Origin: Desulfosediminicola ganghwensis
GTDB lineage: Bacteria; Desulfobacterota; Desulfobulbia; Desulfobulbales; Desulfocapsaceae
Direction of reading: 5' to 3'
Assembly: GCF_005116675.2 (NCBI RefSeq)
Contig: NZ_CP050699.1
Span: 3,992,001-4,056,000, forward strand
DNA length: 64,000 bases
The notes under the pieces are model-generated. The model was given only the letters and a program-made list of their open reading frames with translations. It made no database searches and had not been told where the DNA came from. Each line of letters begins with the position of its first letter. The first letter of the stretch is position 1. Below are positions 18,504-64,000 of this stretch, in pieces. Made by a program: the position numbers and the translations under genes.

Positions 18504-19688
18504 TCAGGAGCTATCATCATAAGCCAGGTCGGTAATCGGCCTGAGATAGACCAGCTTTCCCTTGCCGCACTGCGGGCAGCAGCAGATGTCGATGCCGGTC
18601 AAGCGCAGCATCATCTCCTGAACGGTCTCCACTGTTTTCTGTGTATATTTGACGTCTGAACCGATCAGGGTGCGGATTAAAGCGATGCAGGTTTTCTTGT
18701 TAGCATGAGCCAGGAAGCCGTAATAGCGGATTTTGGTAAAGCCGCTCGGCAGCACGTGCAGGAGAAATCGCCTGATAAATTCTTCAGCACTGAGGGTAAG
18801 TTCTTTTTCCTTATTGTCGTCGCTGCGGTCCCGATACCTGAAGCTAACCTTGCCATCATCGATAGCAATGATCCGGTTGTTGGTTATTGCCACCCGGTGG
18901 GTATAGCGACCGAGATATTCGAGTACCTGTTCCGGTCCACCAAAGGGCTGTTTGGCATAAGTGATCCACTGCTTGCCACGCAACGTTTCTATGAACGTCA
19001 GGAACTGTTTTTTCTCTTGCAGCCCTGCAACCTTGCCAGGGAAAGAAAGGAGGTTTTTCTTATGTGCCCTTTCTAGCTTGTCCAGATAGCGTTTTTTGAA
19101 CTCCTTCGCCAATGACTGAACCCGGAATAAATATTTTCTTCTGGTGCCGGTCCAGCTTGTACGATCAAATGAAAGAACTCCTGCCGGGATGATGCAGTGC
19201 AGGTGGTAGTGGTCCATGAGTTTCTGATTCCATGTGTGAAGCACGGAAATGAAGCCGAGTTGGCCCCCAAGGCGCCACTGCGGATCACGGGCGAAGACCT
19301 GCAATGTTTCTTTGACTGCGGTAAACAGCAGAGTCAGCATAATGTGTTTATTGCCCATAACCAGGGGATTAAGCTCATGCGGCAAAGTGAAAACGTTGTG
19401 AAAATAGGGGCAAGGCAGCAGTTCTGTCCTTCTGTCACTGAGCCATTTCTCCTTGACCATGGTCTGGCATTTCGGACAGTGTCTGTCCCGGCAGGAGTTA
19501 TATGCGTTGCGGCTATAACCGCAATGATTACAGGCTTCGACATGGCCTCCAAGGGCAGCGGTCCGACATATTTCGATGCGTCTCATGACCTTATATTGCT
19601 GCGATCCCACCACATGCATATCCCGGTATTTCTTACCATATCTGCGAAAGATATCGGCAATCTCCGGTGTGTTGCCATTATCTTTCAT
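18504..19688 (-). CDS. IS91-family transposase
   Basis: About 394 residues. The N-terminal zinc-binding region has [23 protein letters not shown]. The HUH-type relaxase core shows [10 protein letters not shown] and [11 protein letters not shown], followed by [18 protein letters not shown] with the catalytic-tyrosine region YLGRYTHR. The C-terminal end has a [10 protein letters not shown] zinc motif. This is a single-strand, rolling-circle-type transposase. I chose the ATG at 19688, preceded by GGAGGGAG; it overlaps the end of the frameshifted integrase, suggesting translational coupling. The gene looks intact. Confidence 0.93.
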
Positions 19689-56786: not shown

Positions 56787-57015
56787 ACAAGGCCGGCCCC
56801 TACAATCTTGTTACTTCAACAAGATAGCGAACACCCTTGTCAATCTCAGTATTACAACCTTGATTTTTGACCTCAACAAGACAATATTGTTTAGGTTTTA
56901 ATAACTCACAATTCTCTGCCGCGCGTTCCTCACTGTGTCTGGTCACACCCCAGCTGTCTGCTCCTGCTCGCAGTAATTAGTCCGGCTTTCCCCCAATTCC
57001 TTGATTAGAATCAGC

Positions 57016-58902
57016 ATGAAGCCCAATTTTCTTGAATATATACAGGACCGGGTCATCCTCGGCGACGGCGCACTTGGTGCCTACCTTTACCAGTGCGGAG
57101 TAAGCCGGGACAAGAACATAGACCTGCTCAACTTGCAGTCTCCCGAGACGGTACATAACGCCCATGAAGAGTACATTCGAGCCGGCAGCCAACTCATAGA
57201 GACAAACACCTTCGGCGCCAGTCGCTATCAACTCGAACCAATGGGTTTTGGCGATTCGCAACGGGAAATCAACCGGGCCGGCGCTGAAATTGCGGTAAAG
57301 GCCGCTGGCGGCAAAGTCTTTGTCGCAGGTTCCGTCGGCCCATCTGGGATCCGCTTTCCGCTTATCGATGAAGAGACAACCATAGATGAGATCAGGGATT
57401 CTTTTCGGGAACAGTTCCTGGGTCTTGCCGAAGGCGGAGTCGACGCATTCATTATCGAAACCTTCAGCAGTCTCGACGAAATGCTGCTTGCTCTTGAAGT
57501 GGCAAAAGAAACTGTTACGGATATGCCCATCATTGCCCAGATGGTCTTCCCGACCGGTGGCACCACCACCCACGGGGAGGACGCCCTCCATTGCGGTGAA
57601 GCGATGCTTCGTGCCGGAGCCGATGTTATCGGCACCAACTGCGGCCGTGGCGTCGATACCGCCGCTACCGCGATCAGAAAAATGGCCCAGGCAGGCGGTG
57701 GCAAGGCTATTCTCTCCGCTTTCCCGAATGCCGGTATGCCGGAGATGATAGGACACAGAACCATTTATCCGGCCCAGCCGGACTACATGGCCAAAAAAGC
57801 GGCCGAGATGATACGCGGCGGCGTCCATCTTATCGGCGGTTGCTGCGGCACAACACCTGCTCATATCCAGCAATTCAAATCGGTCCTCAAAATTAAACCT
57901 GTCCGCCCAACGGCACACTCTGCGGTAGCGCAGGCCGCTACTGAACCTGACAGTGAAAGAACTGCCGGGCCAGGCAAATTTCTGGCTGGCCTTACCGGTG
58001 ATCGCCTGCCAATAATTGTGGAACTTGACCCGCCCACCCATCTAGACATCGAACATGTGCTGACAGGGGCTGAAAAACTTGCCGAGGCAGGTACCGATGC
58101 CATATCCCTTGCCGAGAACCCCCTGGCGATACTGCGAACCGGCAACCTTGGTCTCGCCTCGCTTATTCAGAAACAGGCAAAAATCTCAACCATTCTTCAT
58201 CAGACCGGGCGGGACCTCAATGCGCTTGCTCTTCAGGCCCGGATGATGGAAGCACACCTGCTCGACATCCCTGCGGTTCTCGGGGTAACCGGCGACTCAG
58301 CCACAGGCACCGACCAGCCTGGCGTAAGCGGCGTTTTTGATCTACGCTCCCACGGCATTATCTCCATGCTGAACGGTCTCAACAATGGTGCCAACATGGC
58401 AGGGAAATCACTTAAAAAAAATACTGATTTTTCCATCGGTGCAGCCTTTAGCTTCAGGCCGCAAAACCCCGATTTCCAGATTCGCCGCCTGGAAAAGAAA
58501 GTTGAACTCGGGGCCCGCTTTGTTATGACGCAACCGCTATTTTCGGCTGAAGCGATATCGCAGATGGTGGAGAAGACTTCCCACATTAATGCCATGATCT
58601 TCCCTGGGATATTTCCACTCATCTCCCTTCGCAATGCGGAATTTCTACATAACGAAGTTCCAGGAATCCATGTCCCGTCAAAAGTGCGTGAGCAACTTGC
58701 CAGGTACGACCAGGTTGCCGACCAGCGCAAGGTCGCACTTGAGTTTACTGCCCAACTGATTGACCAGGTCGCCACCATGATAGATGGCATTTACCTGATC
58801 AGCCCTCTCAACAAGTGGGATATCGTCCTCAATTACGTAAAACAGATCCGGAACGCTCAATACCAGGGCAGTGGTCGCATTAAAGATTTCACCCGCGCCT
58901 AG
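57016..58902 (+). CDS. Homocysteine S-methyltransferase / methylenetetrahydrofolate reductase fusion
   Basis: About 628 residues. The N-terminal barrel (to about 290) is a homocysteine S-methyltransferase: ILGDGALGAYLYQCG, then LIETNTFGASRYQLE, and zinc cysteines in IGTNCGRGVD and IGGCCGTTPAHI. A linker leads to a MTHFR domain (about 325-610), with GDRLPIIVELDPPTHLD, VLGVTGDSATGTDQPG, FSIGAAFSFRPQNPDF and GARFVMTQPLFS. It resembles the YitJ-type bifunctional protein. No cobalamin-binding module is attached, so the methyl donor for the first half is open (a separate corrinoid protein, or S-methylmethionine). A terminator follows. The ATG at 57016 starts the family sequence; TTG five codons earlier is possible. 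Confidence 0.9.
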   Translation: MKPNFLEYIQDRVILGDGALGAYLYQCGVSRDKNIDLLNLQSPETVHNAHEEYIRAGSQLIETNTFGASRYQLEPMGFGDSQREINRAGAEIAVKAAGGKVFVAGSVGPSGIRFPLIDEETTIDEIRDSFREQFLGLAEGGVDAFIIETFSSLDEMLLALEVAKETVTDMPIIAQMVFPTGGTTTHGEDALHCGEAMLRAGADVIGTNCGRGVDTAATAIRKMAQAGGGKAILSAFPNAGMPEMIGHRTIYPAQPDYMAKKAAEMIRGGVHLIGGCCGTTPAHIQQFKSVLKIKPVRPTAHSAVAQAATEPDSERTAGPGKFLAGLTGDRLPIIVELDPPTHLDIEHVLTGAEKLAEAGTDAISLAENPLAILRTGNLGLASLIQKQAKISTILHQTGRDLNALALQARMMEAHLLDIPAVLGVTGDSATGTDQPGVSGVFDLRSHGIISMLNGLNNGANMAGKSLKKNTDFSIGAAFSFRPQNPDFQIRRLEKKVELGARFVMTQPLFSAEAISQMVEKTSHINAMIFPGIFPLISLRNAEFLHNEVPGIHVPSKVREQLARYDQVADQRKVALEFTAQLIDQVATMIDGIYLISPLNKWDIVLNYVKQIRNAQYQGSGRIKDFTRA

Positions 58903-58944: not shown

Positions 58945-59675
58945 CGACCAATTGTGCAAACGTTGCTGCCACGAAAATTCATTCAGATTTATTTAGTAAT
59001 TTCATAACTCTTACTGATATACAGCTCTATTTATCAATTATTTTTCTGGTGCAAAATTCCAACACAATCCTAATTACCCGAAACTACTGAATTGCAGCTC
59101 ACCCGCGCGTTGACGATCGGTCGCTCGGCTCCGTTTTCTCAAGCCCCTGTAGTAAGTTACAGCCTAATCTAAACAATTGACTTTTAAAAATCCTCTCAGT
59201 AAATTCGGTTCTGCCTCATTGGTTATGGCAGGAAACAGGCCAACTTAGATATGAGATAATTGTCCCCCCATGTTTGGGCCGACAACTGTCTCCAACACTG
59301 ATGACACTTAACGGACACCAGCGGTATGGTATGTAACCAACTATCATATTTCCCGTTCTCTTCCGCTCGCATTTGCAAGCGTTACCGAACCGCTATGCTC
59401 CGTATCCCTGAACTGGCTTATCCCAGATCACACTCCCCCTGAAAAGATCCCGCCTTCCAGCGCCCGTGAGAGTATCACAGACGCTTATCAAGCATGCTTA
59501 AACGATTCGCGCATGCAGAGTATTCAGTAAAACCCAGAAATATAAAACGGAGGTCAACTAACAACATAATGGTGATATCAGCCATAGCAGCCTGAAAAAT
59601 GATGTTTTTTGTTCTGACTGACAATCGAATTTACCTGCTCCATAACGCGGGCAGGGCAGAAAGAGGATTGAGTTT
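58945..59675. other. Intergenic region, about 730 bp, before the Hdr-MetF cluster
   Basis: No gene. A+T-rich on the left; a small AAGCATGCTT palindrome lies near 59491. It should contain the promoter of the Hdr-MetF operon, but no element is clear enough to name. Confidence 0.45.
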
Positions 59676-60998
59676 ATGGCAGAAAGCAGTATCAAAATCA
59701 AAGGCAAGAAAGAGAGCTTCTTCATCGACCAGGTAAAGGAGATCCTGCCGACAGGCGGGAACCTCAATCTATGTCTCACCTGTGGCGCTTGCGCCTCAGG
59801 GTGCCCGGCTACGGGACTTTCAGACATGGATCCGCGCAAATTCCTGCGCATGTGTGCCATGGGCATGGATGAAGAGGCAACCAAATCACCATGGGTCTGG
59901 ATGTGCACTATGTGCCAGAGATGTATCTACGTCTGCCCCATGCAAATCGACATTCCTCAACTGGTTTTCAACGCCCGCGCCAGCTGGCCGCGTGATGAAC
60001 GCCCCAAGGGTATTCGCGACTCCTGCGACATGGCCCTGAGGAACCCCTCCAACAGCGCCATGGGAACCGCTCCCGACGACTTCATCTTCGTGGTCGAAGA
60101 CGTTCTGGCCGAATATCAGGAATCACAGCCCGAGTTTAAGGATATGGCAGCGCCCATTGATAAACCCGGCGCCCATTTTTTCCTGAATCAGAACTCCCGT
60201 GAACCGGTAACCGAACCGGATGAACTGGTACCGCTCTGGAAGATCCTGCACCTGGCAGGAGTAGACTGGACGTACGGTTCCAAAGGTTGGGCGGCAGAAA
60301 ATTACTGCCTGTTCCTGGCCGACAATGAATGCTGGGAGCATGTTACCCGGGTCTCGGCCAACCAGGCCAACGAGTTGGGGACAAAAGTCTTTCTCAATAC
60401 GGAATGAGGACACATCACATTCTCAGTCCGGGCCGGACTGAAAAAATTCGGTGTTGAGCATAACTTTGAAGTTGCATCCATCTATCAATATTACGCCAAG
60501 TGGATCCGTGAGGGTCGACTCAAGGTGAACTCCGACTGGAACCGCGATCGCAAGATCAAGTTCACCATCCAGGATCCATGTCAGATCGTCAGAAAGGGCT
60601 ATGGTGACGCTGTGGCCGATGACCTCCGTTTTGTAATAAAATCAGTGGTCGGTGAAGAAAATGTCATCGAGATGACACCAAACAAATCCAACAACTACTG
60701 CTGCGGCGGTGGCGGTGGCTTCCTGCAGTCTGGATACCCTGAAGAACGCAGGGCCTACGGCAAGAAGAAGTTCGACCAGATTATCGAAACCGGAGCCGAT
60801 TACTGCATCACCGGCTGCCATAACTGTCACGCTCAGGTCCATGACATCGGCCATCATTTCGGCGGAACATACAGCACTGTCCATCTCTGGACACTCATCT
60901 GCCTCTCGCTGGGAATTTTAGGTCCCAATGAGCGGGAATATTTAGGAGAAGATTTAAAAGACGTAGACGTTTTTCACCCCGAAACAGCTCTTTTTTAG
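59676..60998 (+). CDS. Selenocysteine-containing HdrC/HdrB-like fusion protein
   Basis: Read with UGA at 60405-60407 as selenocysteine, the frame gives 440 residues. The HdrC-like N-terminus has two [4Fe-4S] motifs, C33-x2-C36-x2-C39-x3-C43 and C77-x2-C80-x2-C83-x3-C87. After a linker, Sec244 falls in NTE-U-GH, where homologous CCG proteins usually have ECGH. A complete CCG motif follows: C302, C342-C343 and C381-x2-C384. Homology continues smoothly across the UGA, with no ribosome-binding site or start before the second part. A hairpin lies 16 bases downstream. The protein would be the disulfide- or ferredoxin-linked partner of the HdrA at 62021 and the MetF between them. Confidence 0.88.
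60405..60407 (+). other. UGA selenocysteine codon (Sec244)
   Basis: In-frame TGA between two parts of one conserved protein; replaces cysteine of an ECGH motif. Confidence 0.82.
60424..60440 (+). promoter_or_regulatory. Candidate bacterial SECIS hairpin
   Basis: CAGTCCG-GGC-CGGACTG: a perfect 7-bp stem with a short apical loop starting with G, beginning 16 bases after the UGA. Distance and loop agree with the general rules for bacterial SECIS elements. Confidence 0.75.
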
Positions 60999-61069: not shown

Positions 61070-61942
61070 ATGAGTTTTCAAAAGCGATTAGCAGCGAACG
61101 AGTTTGTTGTTCTGGCCGAGATGCACACACCCAAGGGGGTGAATATCTCAAGGCTGGTGAATGACGCCCGCAGAATGAAAGGGAAGATCGACGGAGTTGT
61201 CATCCCGGACATGGACAACGGTATTATGCGAATGAGCAGCATCGCCGGCGGCGTGCTGATGCAGCAGCAGGGTATCGAGTCAATTCTGCATGTGTATTGC
61301 CGTGACCGCAACAGAATGGCCCTGCAGGGTGACATTCTCGCGGCCCATGTACTTGGTATCCAGAACCTTATTGTTGCCCATAGCGAGGATATTGAAAATG
61401 GAGACCATCCTGAAGCTGTCGTGGTCAATGACCTCAACGAAGTTGAGTTGCTGAAAGGCATTGCTCAACTACAGCGTGGAAAGGACATGGAAGGTTTCGA
61501 ACTTGACGGCGTTCCCACATTCACCACCGGTTGCACTATCGAACCTTTTGCCGATGAAGCGCAAATGGTACAGCAACTCAAACTGGCCAAAGACAAAGTG
61601 GCAGCAGGTGCCTCATTTGTCATCACCCCGGCGGTGTTTGATATAACGCACTTCAGTGGCTTTTACTCCAAGGTTCGCGAACTGGGCGTTCCTGTTATTC
61701 CGACCGTATTTCTCATCAAGTCACTGGCTATAGCCCAGTACATAGCCACCACGGAACCCAGCTCCCAAATCTCCAATGAGCTCATCAACCGTATCCGTAA
61801 ATCCCCCAACCGCGACCAGGAGGGGGTCAAGATTGCAGGTGAGACCATTGCAGCATTACGTGAAATGACCCAAGGCGTGCTGGTGCAGACGCTCGGCTGG
61901 GAACACAAGCTGCCTGAGATCCTGGACGCGGCAGGAATGTAA
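61070..61942 (+). CDS. metF: Methylenetetrahydrofolate reductase (MetF) of an Hdr-linked complex
   Basis: A 290-residue MTHFR barrel: FVVLAEMHTPKGVNISRLVNDAR, then GVVIPDMDNGIMRMSSIA and HVYCRDRNRMALQGDILAAHVLGIQNLIVAHSED, with GASFVITPAVFDITHFSGFY near residue 185 and the C-terminal VKIAGETIAALREM. The R-D-R-N segment is the FAD/folate-binding hallmark. It lies between the HdrC/B-like and HdrA-like genes on the same strand, as in the MetF-Hdr clusters of acetogens and sulfate reducers. There methylene-THF reduction is thought to be coupled to ferredoxin or NADH through Hdr subunits. No MetV gene is seen before the window ends. GAAGGGAG precedes the ATG. Confidence 0.92.
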   Translation: MSFQKRLAANEFVVLAEMHTPKGVNISRLVNDARRMKGKIDGVVIPDMDNGIMRMSSIAGGVLMQQQGIESILHVYCRDRNRMALQGDILAAHVLGIQNLIVAHSEDIENGDHPEAVVVNDLNEVELLKGIAQLQRGKDMEGFELDGVPTFTTGCTIEPFADEAQMVQQLKLAKDKVAAGASFVITPAVFDITHFSGFYSKVRELGVPVIPTVFLIKSLAIAQYIATTEPSSQISNELINRIRKSPNRDQEGVKIAGETIAALREMTQGVLVQTLGWEHKLPEILDAAGM

Positions 61943-62020: not shown

Positions 62021-64000
62021 ATGCAGAACACAAATAAACTTCAAAGCAGCAACAAGGTACTTGTTATCGGTGGAGGCATGGGTGGTATTCGTACTGCTCT
62101 TGATCTTGCCGAGGCGGAGAAGGATGTTGTGCTGGTGGATAAGGCCCCCGCTATTGGCGGCCTTATGACCCAGCTGGACAGAACCTTCCCCACCAATAAC
62201 TGTGATCTCTGTACACTGGCTCCCAATCTCTCTGAGAGCAGCAGGCAGGATCATATCGATCTACTGGCACTCACCAGCGTCACCGACGTTCAAGGCGAAA
62301 AAGGCAACTTCACCGTCAGCCTTACCACTGCCCCACGATACGTCAATCTTGATAAATGTACAGCCTGTGGTGAATGCCATAAGGCTTTTCCGGAGTGCGT
62401 AACCTTCACTCCCGGTCTCGATCACCGCGCGCCTACCTGCATGCGGTACCCGCAAGCCACTCCACAGGCATTCGCCATCGATCTGACTAAATGCGACGAT
62501 GTGGAAGCACTTATGAAGGTGTGCCCGGCCGGCGCTATCAACCCGGACGATATCGGTCGCAATCAGGAATTGAAATGCGGAGCTATCGTTTTCAGCCCCG
62601 GCGCATCTCTTTTTGATCCGAGCCACCTCGACTATCTGGCCTATGCAACACAACCAGACGTGGTAACCAGCCTGGAGTACGAGCGTATTCTTTCTGCATC
62701 CGGTCCTACCCAGGGCAAGCTGGTTCGTCCCTCCAATGGTGAGCCACCAAAGAAAGTCGCCTGGATTCAATGTATCGGCTCACGCGGTCTGCAAAAAGGT
62801 GCCGGTGAGCATTGCTCCAGTGCCTGTTGTATGTTCGCCATGAAAGAAGCCATGGTTACCAGGGAGCGTTTCGGTGACGATATTGAAGCGACCATATTCT
62901 ATATGGATATGCGTACTTTCGGTAAAGACTACGAGTTGCTTTATACCCGCGCCAAAGATGAGTTCGGCGTTCGTTTCGTACATAGCCGGCCACATAGTAT
63001 CCTCCAGCCTGAAGGCGAGGAGAAACTCCTGCTCTCCTACACCAACGACGGGTCAACCGAGCAGCATGACGAAGCATTCGACATGGTGGTTCTCTCCACC
63101 GGCTTCAAGGTTGGTGACGACGTCAAGGTGCTGGCCGAAAAGATGGGTATCGAACTGCGCAGCGACGGCTTTCCTAAAACCGAGTCGTTCAACCCGCAGG
63201 CAACCTCGGTTCCCGGTATCTATGTTTGTGGTGCCTACCAGGCGCCGAAAGATATCCCCGAGACCATGATCCAGGCAAGTGCCGCTGCCTGTATGGCCTC
63301 TCGCGATGTCGAGTCCGTCAAGAAAACCAAACATGCCTCAGAACTGTTCCCAGCCGAGCGCGAAGTTGCAAATGAAGCACCCAAAGTTGGTGTCTTTGTC
63401 TGTGAATGCGGTGAGAATATAGGTAATACCGTCAATGTTGAACAACTTGTCGAGAGCGCCGGCAAGATCTCCAATGTTGCCGTGGCCCAGGCTGTCGGGC
63501 ATGGCTGCAGCAGGGAATCGATGGCAACCATCAAGGCTACCATCGAGGAGCAGGGATTAAACCGCGTTGTTATAGGCGGCTGCTCCCCACGCACCCACCA
63601 GGAGAAATTCCAGGATCTGCTCCGTTCCACAGGTCTCAACAAGTATCTGCTTGAAATCGCCAATATACGTGAGCAGGCAACCTGGGTCCATCCAGGTGAT
63701 CCCGCAAGAGCGACCGCCAAGGCCGAAGATCTTATCAAGATGGCTGTGGGCGGCGTATTAAAGGCACAACCTCTTGCCGACCAGACCCTGCCGATGAACA
63801 AAGACGCCCTCGTGGTAGGCGGCGGTGTGGCGGGTATGACCGCTGCTATCGAATTGGCTGATCAGGGTTCCAAGGTATATCTGGCAGAGAAGTTTGATCA
63901 GCTTGGCGGTATAACCAGTATGCTCAGCAAGACCCTCGAGGGTGCCGACGTTAAAGCATTCCTGGCAGAATTGATAGAAAAGGTTAATAGTCACGAAAAC
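62021..64000 (+). CDS. HdrA-like protein with an extra N-terminal flavoprotein module (3' truncated by window)
   Basis: The frame is open from ATG 62021 to the window end (660 codons, no stop). Residues 1 to about 430 form a first FAD module (VLVIGGGMGGIRTALDLA, NNCDLCTLAP) with a ferredoxin-like insert (CTACGECHK, VCPAGAINP) and WIQCIGSRG, HCSSACCMFAMKEA. Then a canonical HdrA begins: VGVFVCECGENIG, VGHGCSRESM, LNRVVIGGCSPRTHQ, NIREQATWVHPGD, and a second FAD site LVVGGGVAGMTAAIELAD. This double arrangement resembles long HdrA forms in sulfate reducers. It follows metF by 78 bp and would be the flavin-based electron-transfer hub of the complex. RBS-like AAGGGTAG precedes the start. Confidence 0.92.
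   Translation, partial: MQNTNKLQSSNKVLVIGGGMGGIRTALDLAEAEKDVVLVDKAPAIGGLMTQLDRTFPTNNCDLCTLAPNLSESSRQDHIDLLALTSVTDVQGEKGNFTVSLTTAPRYVNLDKCTACGECHKAFPECVTFTPGLDHRAPTCMRYPQATPQAFAIDLTKCDDVEALMKVCPAGAINPDDIGRNQELKCGAIVFSPGASLFDPSHLDYLAYATQPDVVTSLEYERILSASGPTQGKLVRPSNGEPPKKVAWIQCIGSRGLQKGAGEHCSSACCMFAMKEAMVTRERFGDDIEATIFYMDMRTFGKDYELLYTRAKDEFGVRFVHSRPHSILQPEGEEKLLLSYTNDGSTEQHDEAFDMVVLSTGFKVGDDVKVLAEKMGIELRSDGFPKTESFNPQATSVPGIYVCGAYQAPKDIPETMIQASAAACMASRDVESVKKTKHASELFPAEREVANEAPKVGVFVCECGENIGNTVNVEQLVESAGKISNVAVAQAVGHGCSRESMATIKATIEEQGLNRVVIGGCSPRTHQEKFQDLLRSTGLNKYLLEIANIREQATWVHPGDPARATAKAEDLIKMAVGGVLKAQPLADQTLPMNKDALVVGGGVAGMTAAIELADQGSKVYLAEKFDQLGGITSMLSKTLEGADVKAFLAELIEKVNSHEN

Follow-up and report, generated by a model that had tools for sequence, protein, structure and literature searches.

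An in-frame UGA in the genome of Desulfosediminicola ganghwensis, at positions 60405-60407 of the 64-kb stretch of DNA analysed here (the window), is very probably decoded as selenocysteine (Sec) with the hairpin at 60423-60441, giving one 440-residue HdrCB-like protein of the UGH family, which we infer to be a subunit of an Hdr-type methylene-THF reductase. Sequence comparison supports the full-length product, Sec at residue 244, the bSECIS and the presence of decoding machinery. The gene is a further copy from a selenoprotein family that is already known, and the selenoproteins of this selenoprotein-rich genome have been surveyed before; the additions of the present analysis are the operon HdrCB-MetF-HdrA-MvhD-MetV-MetF and the placement of the Sec. 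The features concerned are as follows.

57001..58902, + strand: bifunctional homocysteine S-methyltransferase/MTHFR, upstream (NF006396, 663.7 bits, cut-off 453)
59662..59667, + strand: ribosome-binding site AGAGGA (from the sequence, by eye)
59676..60998, + strand: HdrCB-like (Fe-S oxidoreductase-like) selenoprotein gene, 440 residues, predicted Sec at 244
60405..60407, + strand: UGA probably read as selenocysteine, within T-E-U-G-H (from relatives and own copies)
60423..60441, + strand: bSECIS-like hairpin, 8 bp, 3-nt loop (from pairing in relatives)
61070..61942, + strand: MetF (methylenetetrahydrofolate reductase), next gene of the cluster (PF02219)
62021..64000, continuing beyond the window, + strand: HdrA-like flavoprotein, Cys form, 1013 residues

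A first-pass annotation made from the letters alone had proposed that one HdrC/B-like protein is split here by a single UGA read as Sec, and the closer analysis bears this out. The frame 59676-60998 comprises 440 codons and is open except for the TGA at codon 244, within T-E-U-G-H; its ATG is preceded by AAAGAGGA. The HdrC/B-like character is supported by the domains, with a 4Fe-4S dicluster region (Fer4 families) in the N-terminal part and a CCG domain (PF02754) in the C-terminal part, and in a search of solved structures HdrC chains match the first part of the protein and HdrB chains its last part. The name HdrB, CoM-S-S-CoB reductase, was rejected because the curated HdrB model TIGR03288 reaches only 23.3 bits against a cut-off of 345.15 and two complete CCG ligand sets are lacking: PF02754 matches once, and the ligand set of a first CCG half was not found in a region that aligns poorly. 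GlpC proper, of anaerobic glycerol-3-phosphate dehydrogenase, was rejected as well (TIGR03379, 37.1 bits against a cut-off of 279.9); the window neighbours are the methyltransferase/MTHFR, MetF and HdrA rather than glpAB. The best NCBIfam matches, DsrK, TmcB and HmcF, all fall far under their cut-offs (TmcB 164.8 against 735 bits), and a DsrK-like protein of the same genome (L147) has E-C-G-H at the place of the Sec.

By its sequence, the HdrCB-like protein appears to belong to the known Fe-S oxidoreductase-like (GlpC) selenoprotein family (PMC1794560), for which the available text of a 2026 review gives the motif UGH (PMC13188914); WP_174406253.1 is a published member. It combines a CCG domain with a 4Fe-4S dicluster, its UGA lies in U-G-H with Cys homologues, and a hairpin follows just after the UGA. 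Further points of agreement with the family are the GlpC/COG0247-type Fe-S protein, the occurrence in Deltaproteobacteria and the linkage to hdrA. The published operon kind, with Sec-HdrA, Sec-MvhD (FrhD) and hydrogenase, is that of another copy in the same genome (L005), whereas the window copy stands with MetF, MvhD, MetV and a Cys-form HdrA and has no hydrogenase.

The conservation of the UGA was assessed in relatives from a scan of genome contigs, which confirmed at least 496; the best 80 of these were used, and distant forms are therefore under-sampled. Codon 244 is UGA in 75 of the 80 and TGC (Cys) in the other five. A natural C-terminus at the UGA is contradicted by the same set, as in all 80 the match extends past codon 244 in the same frame. 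Five of these best 80 also contain TAA or TAG in the matched range (L077, L085, L095, L107 and L108), and two have extra TGAs there (L092 and L095). In a tree of 78 of 85 sequences, from which seven were dropped as short or for TAA/TAG, the five Cys loci group together (support 1.0) within the Sec forms; its backbone supports are low and its rooting was our choice, and we draw from it no direction of change between Sec and Cys. Within the D. ganghwensis genome itself (a single contig of 5,653,142 bases) there are five full-length copies including that of the window, and the four others are 71, 71, 63 and 36-37% identical to it, three with TGA at codon 244 and one with Cys. Chance would not be expected to put UGA at this one codon in 75 of 80 relatives and four of five own copies.

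The settings of the own copies differ. L003 lies with Sec-HdrA, MvhD, MetV and MetF, L002 with an HdrD-like gene, Sec-HdrA genes and MvhD, and the neighbours of L005 (wider locus L037) are Sec-HdrA, Sec-MvhD and the large subunit of a hydrogenase, which likewise carries an in-frame UGA. The only Cys copy of the genome, L004 (L036), is found beside FAD-dependent genes that resemble GlpA and GlpB, names given by eye. We observed in passing that the Sec copies L002, L003 and L005 (wider loci L034, L035 and L037) are each near HdrA genes with an in-frame UGA in NDCxxU, and, from the GlpA/GlpB-like neighbours of L004, that the choice of Sec or Cys may go with the partner enzyme. One Cys and four Sec paralogues with different partner genes in one cultured sulfate reducer possibly make a useful natural series.

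The first-pass suggestion that the window protein partners MetF is supported by domains and gene order. MetF and HdrA follow the gene directly, and MvhD, MetV and a second MetF come after HdrA, outside the window; a carbon monoxide dehydrogenase-like gene was seen by eye further on, also outside it. Clustering of hdrA, mvhD, metV and metF with HdrB/C genes is the gene content of an Hdr-type methylene-THF reductase. An HdrCBA-MvhD-MetVF enzyme of this type is described or proposed for Sporomusa ovata and Moorella thermoacetica in the available text of PMC9430772, where hdrA, mvhD, metV, metF and HdrB/C-like genes are likewise clustered. The present gene cluster departs from it in the fusion of HdrC with HdrB, in a Sec within the HdrB-like part, in having two MetF genes and in a degenerate first CCG half. 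An HdrC-HdrB fusion is noted in the accessible part of PMC5736913 for an hdrABC-mvhD-metVF cluster of Chloroflexi and, citing other work, for certain sulfate reducers; the accessible part of PMC2702500 reports hdrD4 of Desulfobacterium autotrophicum as a Sec protein. In the portions available of these two sources we found no tie of a UGH Sec protein to MetF, and we do not present such a tie as new to the literature.

Judging from gene content, the HdrCB-like protein would be the electron-transfer subunit of an HdrCB-MetF-HdrA-MvhD-MetV complex, in which electrons would pass between the HdrA flavin, cubane clusters, one noncubane [4Fe-4S] cluster and MetF or another acceptor. Sec244 would lie next to the noncubane cluster, and its selenolate could there speed or tune a redox step. 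Tuning of the redox potential at the Hdr-like centre by selenium, as suggested in the first pass, is a plausible though putative role.

A different partnership is the most serious alternative, although we consider it rather unlikely: the protein would be a selenoprotein that serves a general HdrA-MvhD electron hub, with MetF a mere neighbour. It draws on the paralogues beside hydrogenase (L005) or GlpA/GlpB-like genes (L004), and on the neighbourhoods of the 75 Sec relatives among the best 80 of at least 496, where five have a NiFe hydrogenase nearby, 12 have only HdrA/MvhD and 27 have none of the tested genes, all neighbour-gene counts being lower bounds since many flanks are short. With 27 of 75 Sec relatives lacking tested partner genes nearby, MetF cannot partner the whole family. 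Against the hub stands the finding that MetF or MetV lies on the same strand within 4.6 kb in at least 31 of the same 75. The gene order of the nearest relatives also speaks against it: the window gene clusters with L041-L050 (support 1.0 in the tree of 78 of 85 sequences), and in eight of these ten loci MetF and then HdrA are directly downstream. The other two, L049 and L050, have HdrA directly downstream, with MetF farther away in L049. In the seven loci of the clade whose flank is long enough, MvhD and MetV come next. Among the five Cys relatives of the best 80, four have HdrA/MvhD only and one has none of the tested genes.

The first base of the hairpin is the 16th after the UGA, in agreement with the first-pass annotation, and its stem has 8 bp (strands 60423-60430 and 60434-60441) rather than the 7 bp given there. 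In the window sequence its folding z-score is -2.46, with two of 200 shuffles as stable or more so. Its bSECIS nature is better judged across relatives. In 79 UGA sequences (76 distinct), 94.6% of hairpin cells are paired and two-sided changes occur in five of the eight pairs; none of 500 shuffles reaches the observed covariation on four of five measures, and 21 of 500 do so on the fifth. Sliding the partner strand abolishes the pairing pattern of the UGA forms. The outermost pair is absent in 24 of the 76 distinct UGA sequences and the fourth pair in eight of them. In six Cys forms only 64.6% of the cells are paired, against a shuffled mean of 60.4%. These comparisons indicate that the hairpin is kept by compensatory changes in Sec forms and not in the six Cys forms, and the divergent own copy L005 has a hairpin with a different stem sequence. 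The free-energy z-score proved a weak discriminator of Sec and Cys forms that alone does not separate the groups, and the pair count was used instead; the mean was -1.36 for the 79 UGA forms, and the six Cys forms gave -3.10, -0.21, 2.38, 1.00, -1.10 and 0.48, the value of -3.10 belonging to the own Cys copy, which has another fold.

The same hairpin bears on the idea of two separate genes, an HdrC-like protein that ends at the UGA and a CCG protein that begins at GTG 60525. The first pass had found no start signal in the downstream part, and this stood in part only: the GTG is in frame, has a weak GAGGG ten bases upstream and opens a frame of 157 codons that contains the whole CCG match, which is what two genes would need. 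The 39 codons between the UGA and the GTG nevertheless change as coding sequence does, with 17 changes at first, 7 at second and 120 at third codon positions (273 codons, the window gene compared with seven of the ten nearest orthologues among the relatives listed), a pattern which argues that they evolve as translated sequence under purifying selection. Cys homologues are continuous across this region, and compensation in the hairpin is confined to UGA forms, so that two genes are highly improbable. A pseudogene or sequencing error, which a single stop splitting a gene might suggest, has next to no probability given the same UGA in 75 independent loci of the best 80 of at least 496 and in three own paralogues, and purifying selection downstream of it.

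Machinery for Sec decoding, which the first pass had named as a check, is largely in evidence: selB (384.7 bits), tRNA-Sec (75.4 bits) and two selD were all found above cut-offs in the D. ganghwensis genome. The two selD (L025 and L026) are different genes, and each has an in-frame UGA, which a six-frame reading shows in a U-x-x-K context. The exception is selA, for which neither TIGR00474 nor PF03841 gave a match in the readable part of the genome; SepSecS (PF05889) had no match in the genome either. Across 58 genomes (this one and 57 relatives) selA was matched in 51, over the cut-off in 49. In the congeners G001 and G002 (L133 and L134) selA adjoins an rRNA operon and is followed by the same conserved genes, and in D. 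ganghwensis these conserved neighbours, located via one of them, adjoin a stretch that reads N. The missing match is thus no evidence that selA is absent, and another route to Sec-tRNA, entertained for its lack, was dropped on this synteny. As a side observation, many draft relatives have a selA match that begins no more than a few hundred bases from the start of a contig, and assemblies broken or masked at rRNA may falsely seem to be without selA. The conservation of UGA or Cys at codon 244, the covariation of the hairpin and the presence of selB, tRNA-Sec and selD together indicate that the UGA is read as selenocysteine. According to the available text of PMC12013277, which picked Sec-using organisms by searches for SelA, SelB and SelD, D. 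ganghwensis IMCC35004 (GCA_005116675.2) has 40 known and five new selenoprotein genes; this supports the Sec reading and lowers its novelty.

The window holds 33 candidate UGA junctions, the HdrCB-like gene among them, and by eye none of the others is convincing as readthrough. A frame of 425 codons at 18506 on the minus strand has a zinc-finger-like C-terminus and stops at a UGA beyond which 72 further codons are open; judged by eye, the frame resembles a transposase with a natural end. Elsewhere in the genome, an in-frame TGA near G000:C1:4340392 was rejected, since it looks by eye like RnfC ending naturally at UGA.

Where the Sec sits was approached through an AlphaFold2 model built from 30 sequences (mean pLDDT 86.5). 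The best fold match of the model is EtfD of M. smegmatis (Z 26.8, rmsd 2.6, 369 residues), HdrB chains match at Z 21.1-22.0, and LutA and 3kwl at Z 20; among the matches listed, EtfD and HdrB thus appear to be the closest solved folds to the predicted one. An alignment of L005 with EtfD pairs the Sec with Cys581 and the U-G-H histidine with His583, and the family profile match starts at the same pair. In EtfD, as given in the available text of PMC13083937, Cys581 is among the ligands of the linear [3Fe-4S] cluster D1, and the noncubane cluster D2 is bound by His583 together with Cys637, 672, 673, 709 and 712. The five noncubane-cluster Cys and the ligand His all have counterparts in the HdrCB-like protein, in which Cys 302, 342, 343, 381 and 384, His246 and position 244 (Cys or Sec) do not vary among the 30 aligned sequences, U being entered as C. 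The two proteins differ in that the HdrCB-like protein is soluble and does not retain the linear-cluster ligands except at position 244, in a region that aligns poorly. In this degenerate first CCG half, position 244 alone has Cys or Sec in all 30 sequences, and Cys211 is Cys in 29 of 30; no partners were found in the family for the other D1-type cysteines of an EtfD-like protein of the same genome (L148), again where alignment is poor.

On these alignments Sec244 appears to match a ligand of the EtfD linear cluster and to lie two residues from a likely noncubane-cluster ligand. That Sec244 itself ligates the noncubane [4Fe-4S] cluster through its selenolate, directly or in a switchable way, or with the nearly invariant Cys211 holds a small residual metal centre at the place of the EtfD linear [3Fe-4S] cluster, is a doubtful proposition which we regard as improbable; either reading, if true, would mean a selenium-modified Hdr centre in methylene-THF reduction. 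With Sec placed near a likely noncubane-cluster ligand and the series of paralogues in this one genome, the role of selenium in Hdr-type complexes becomes directly testable.
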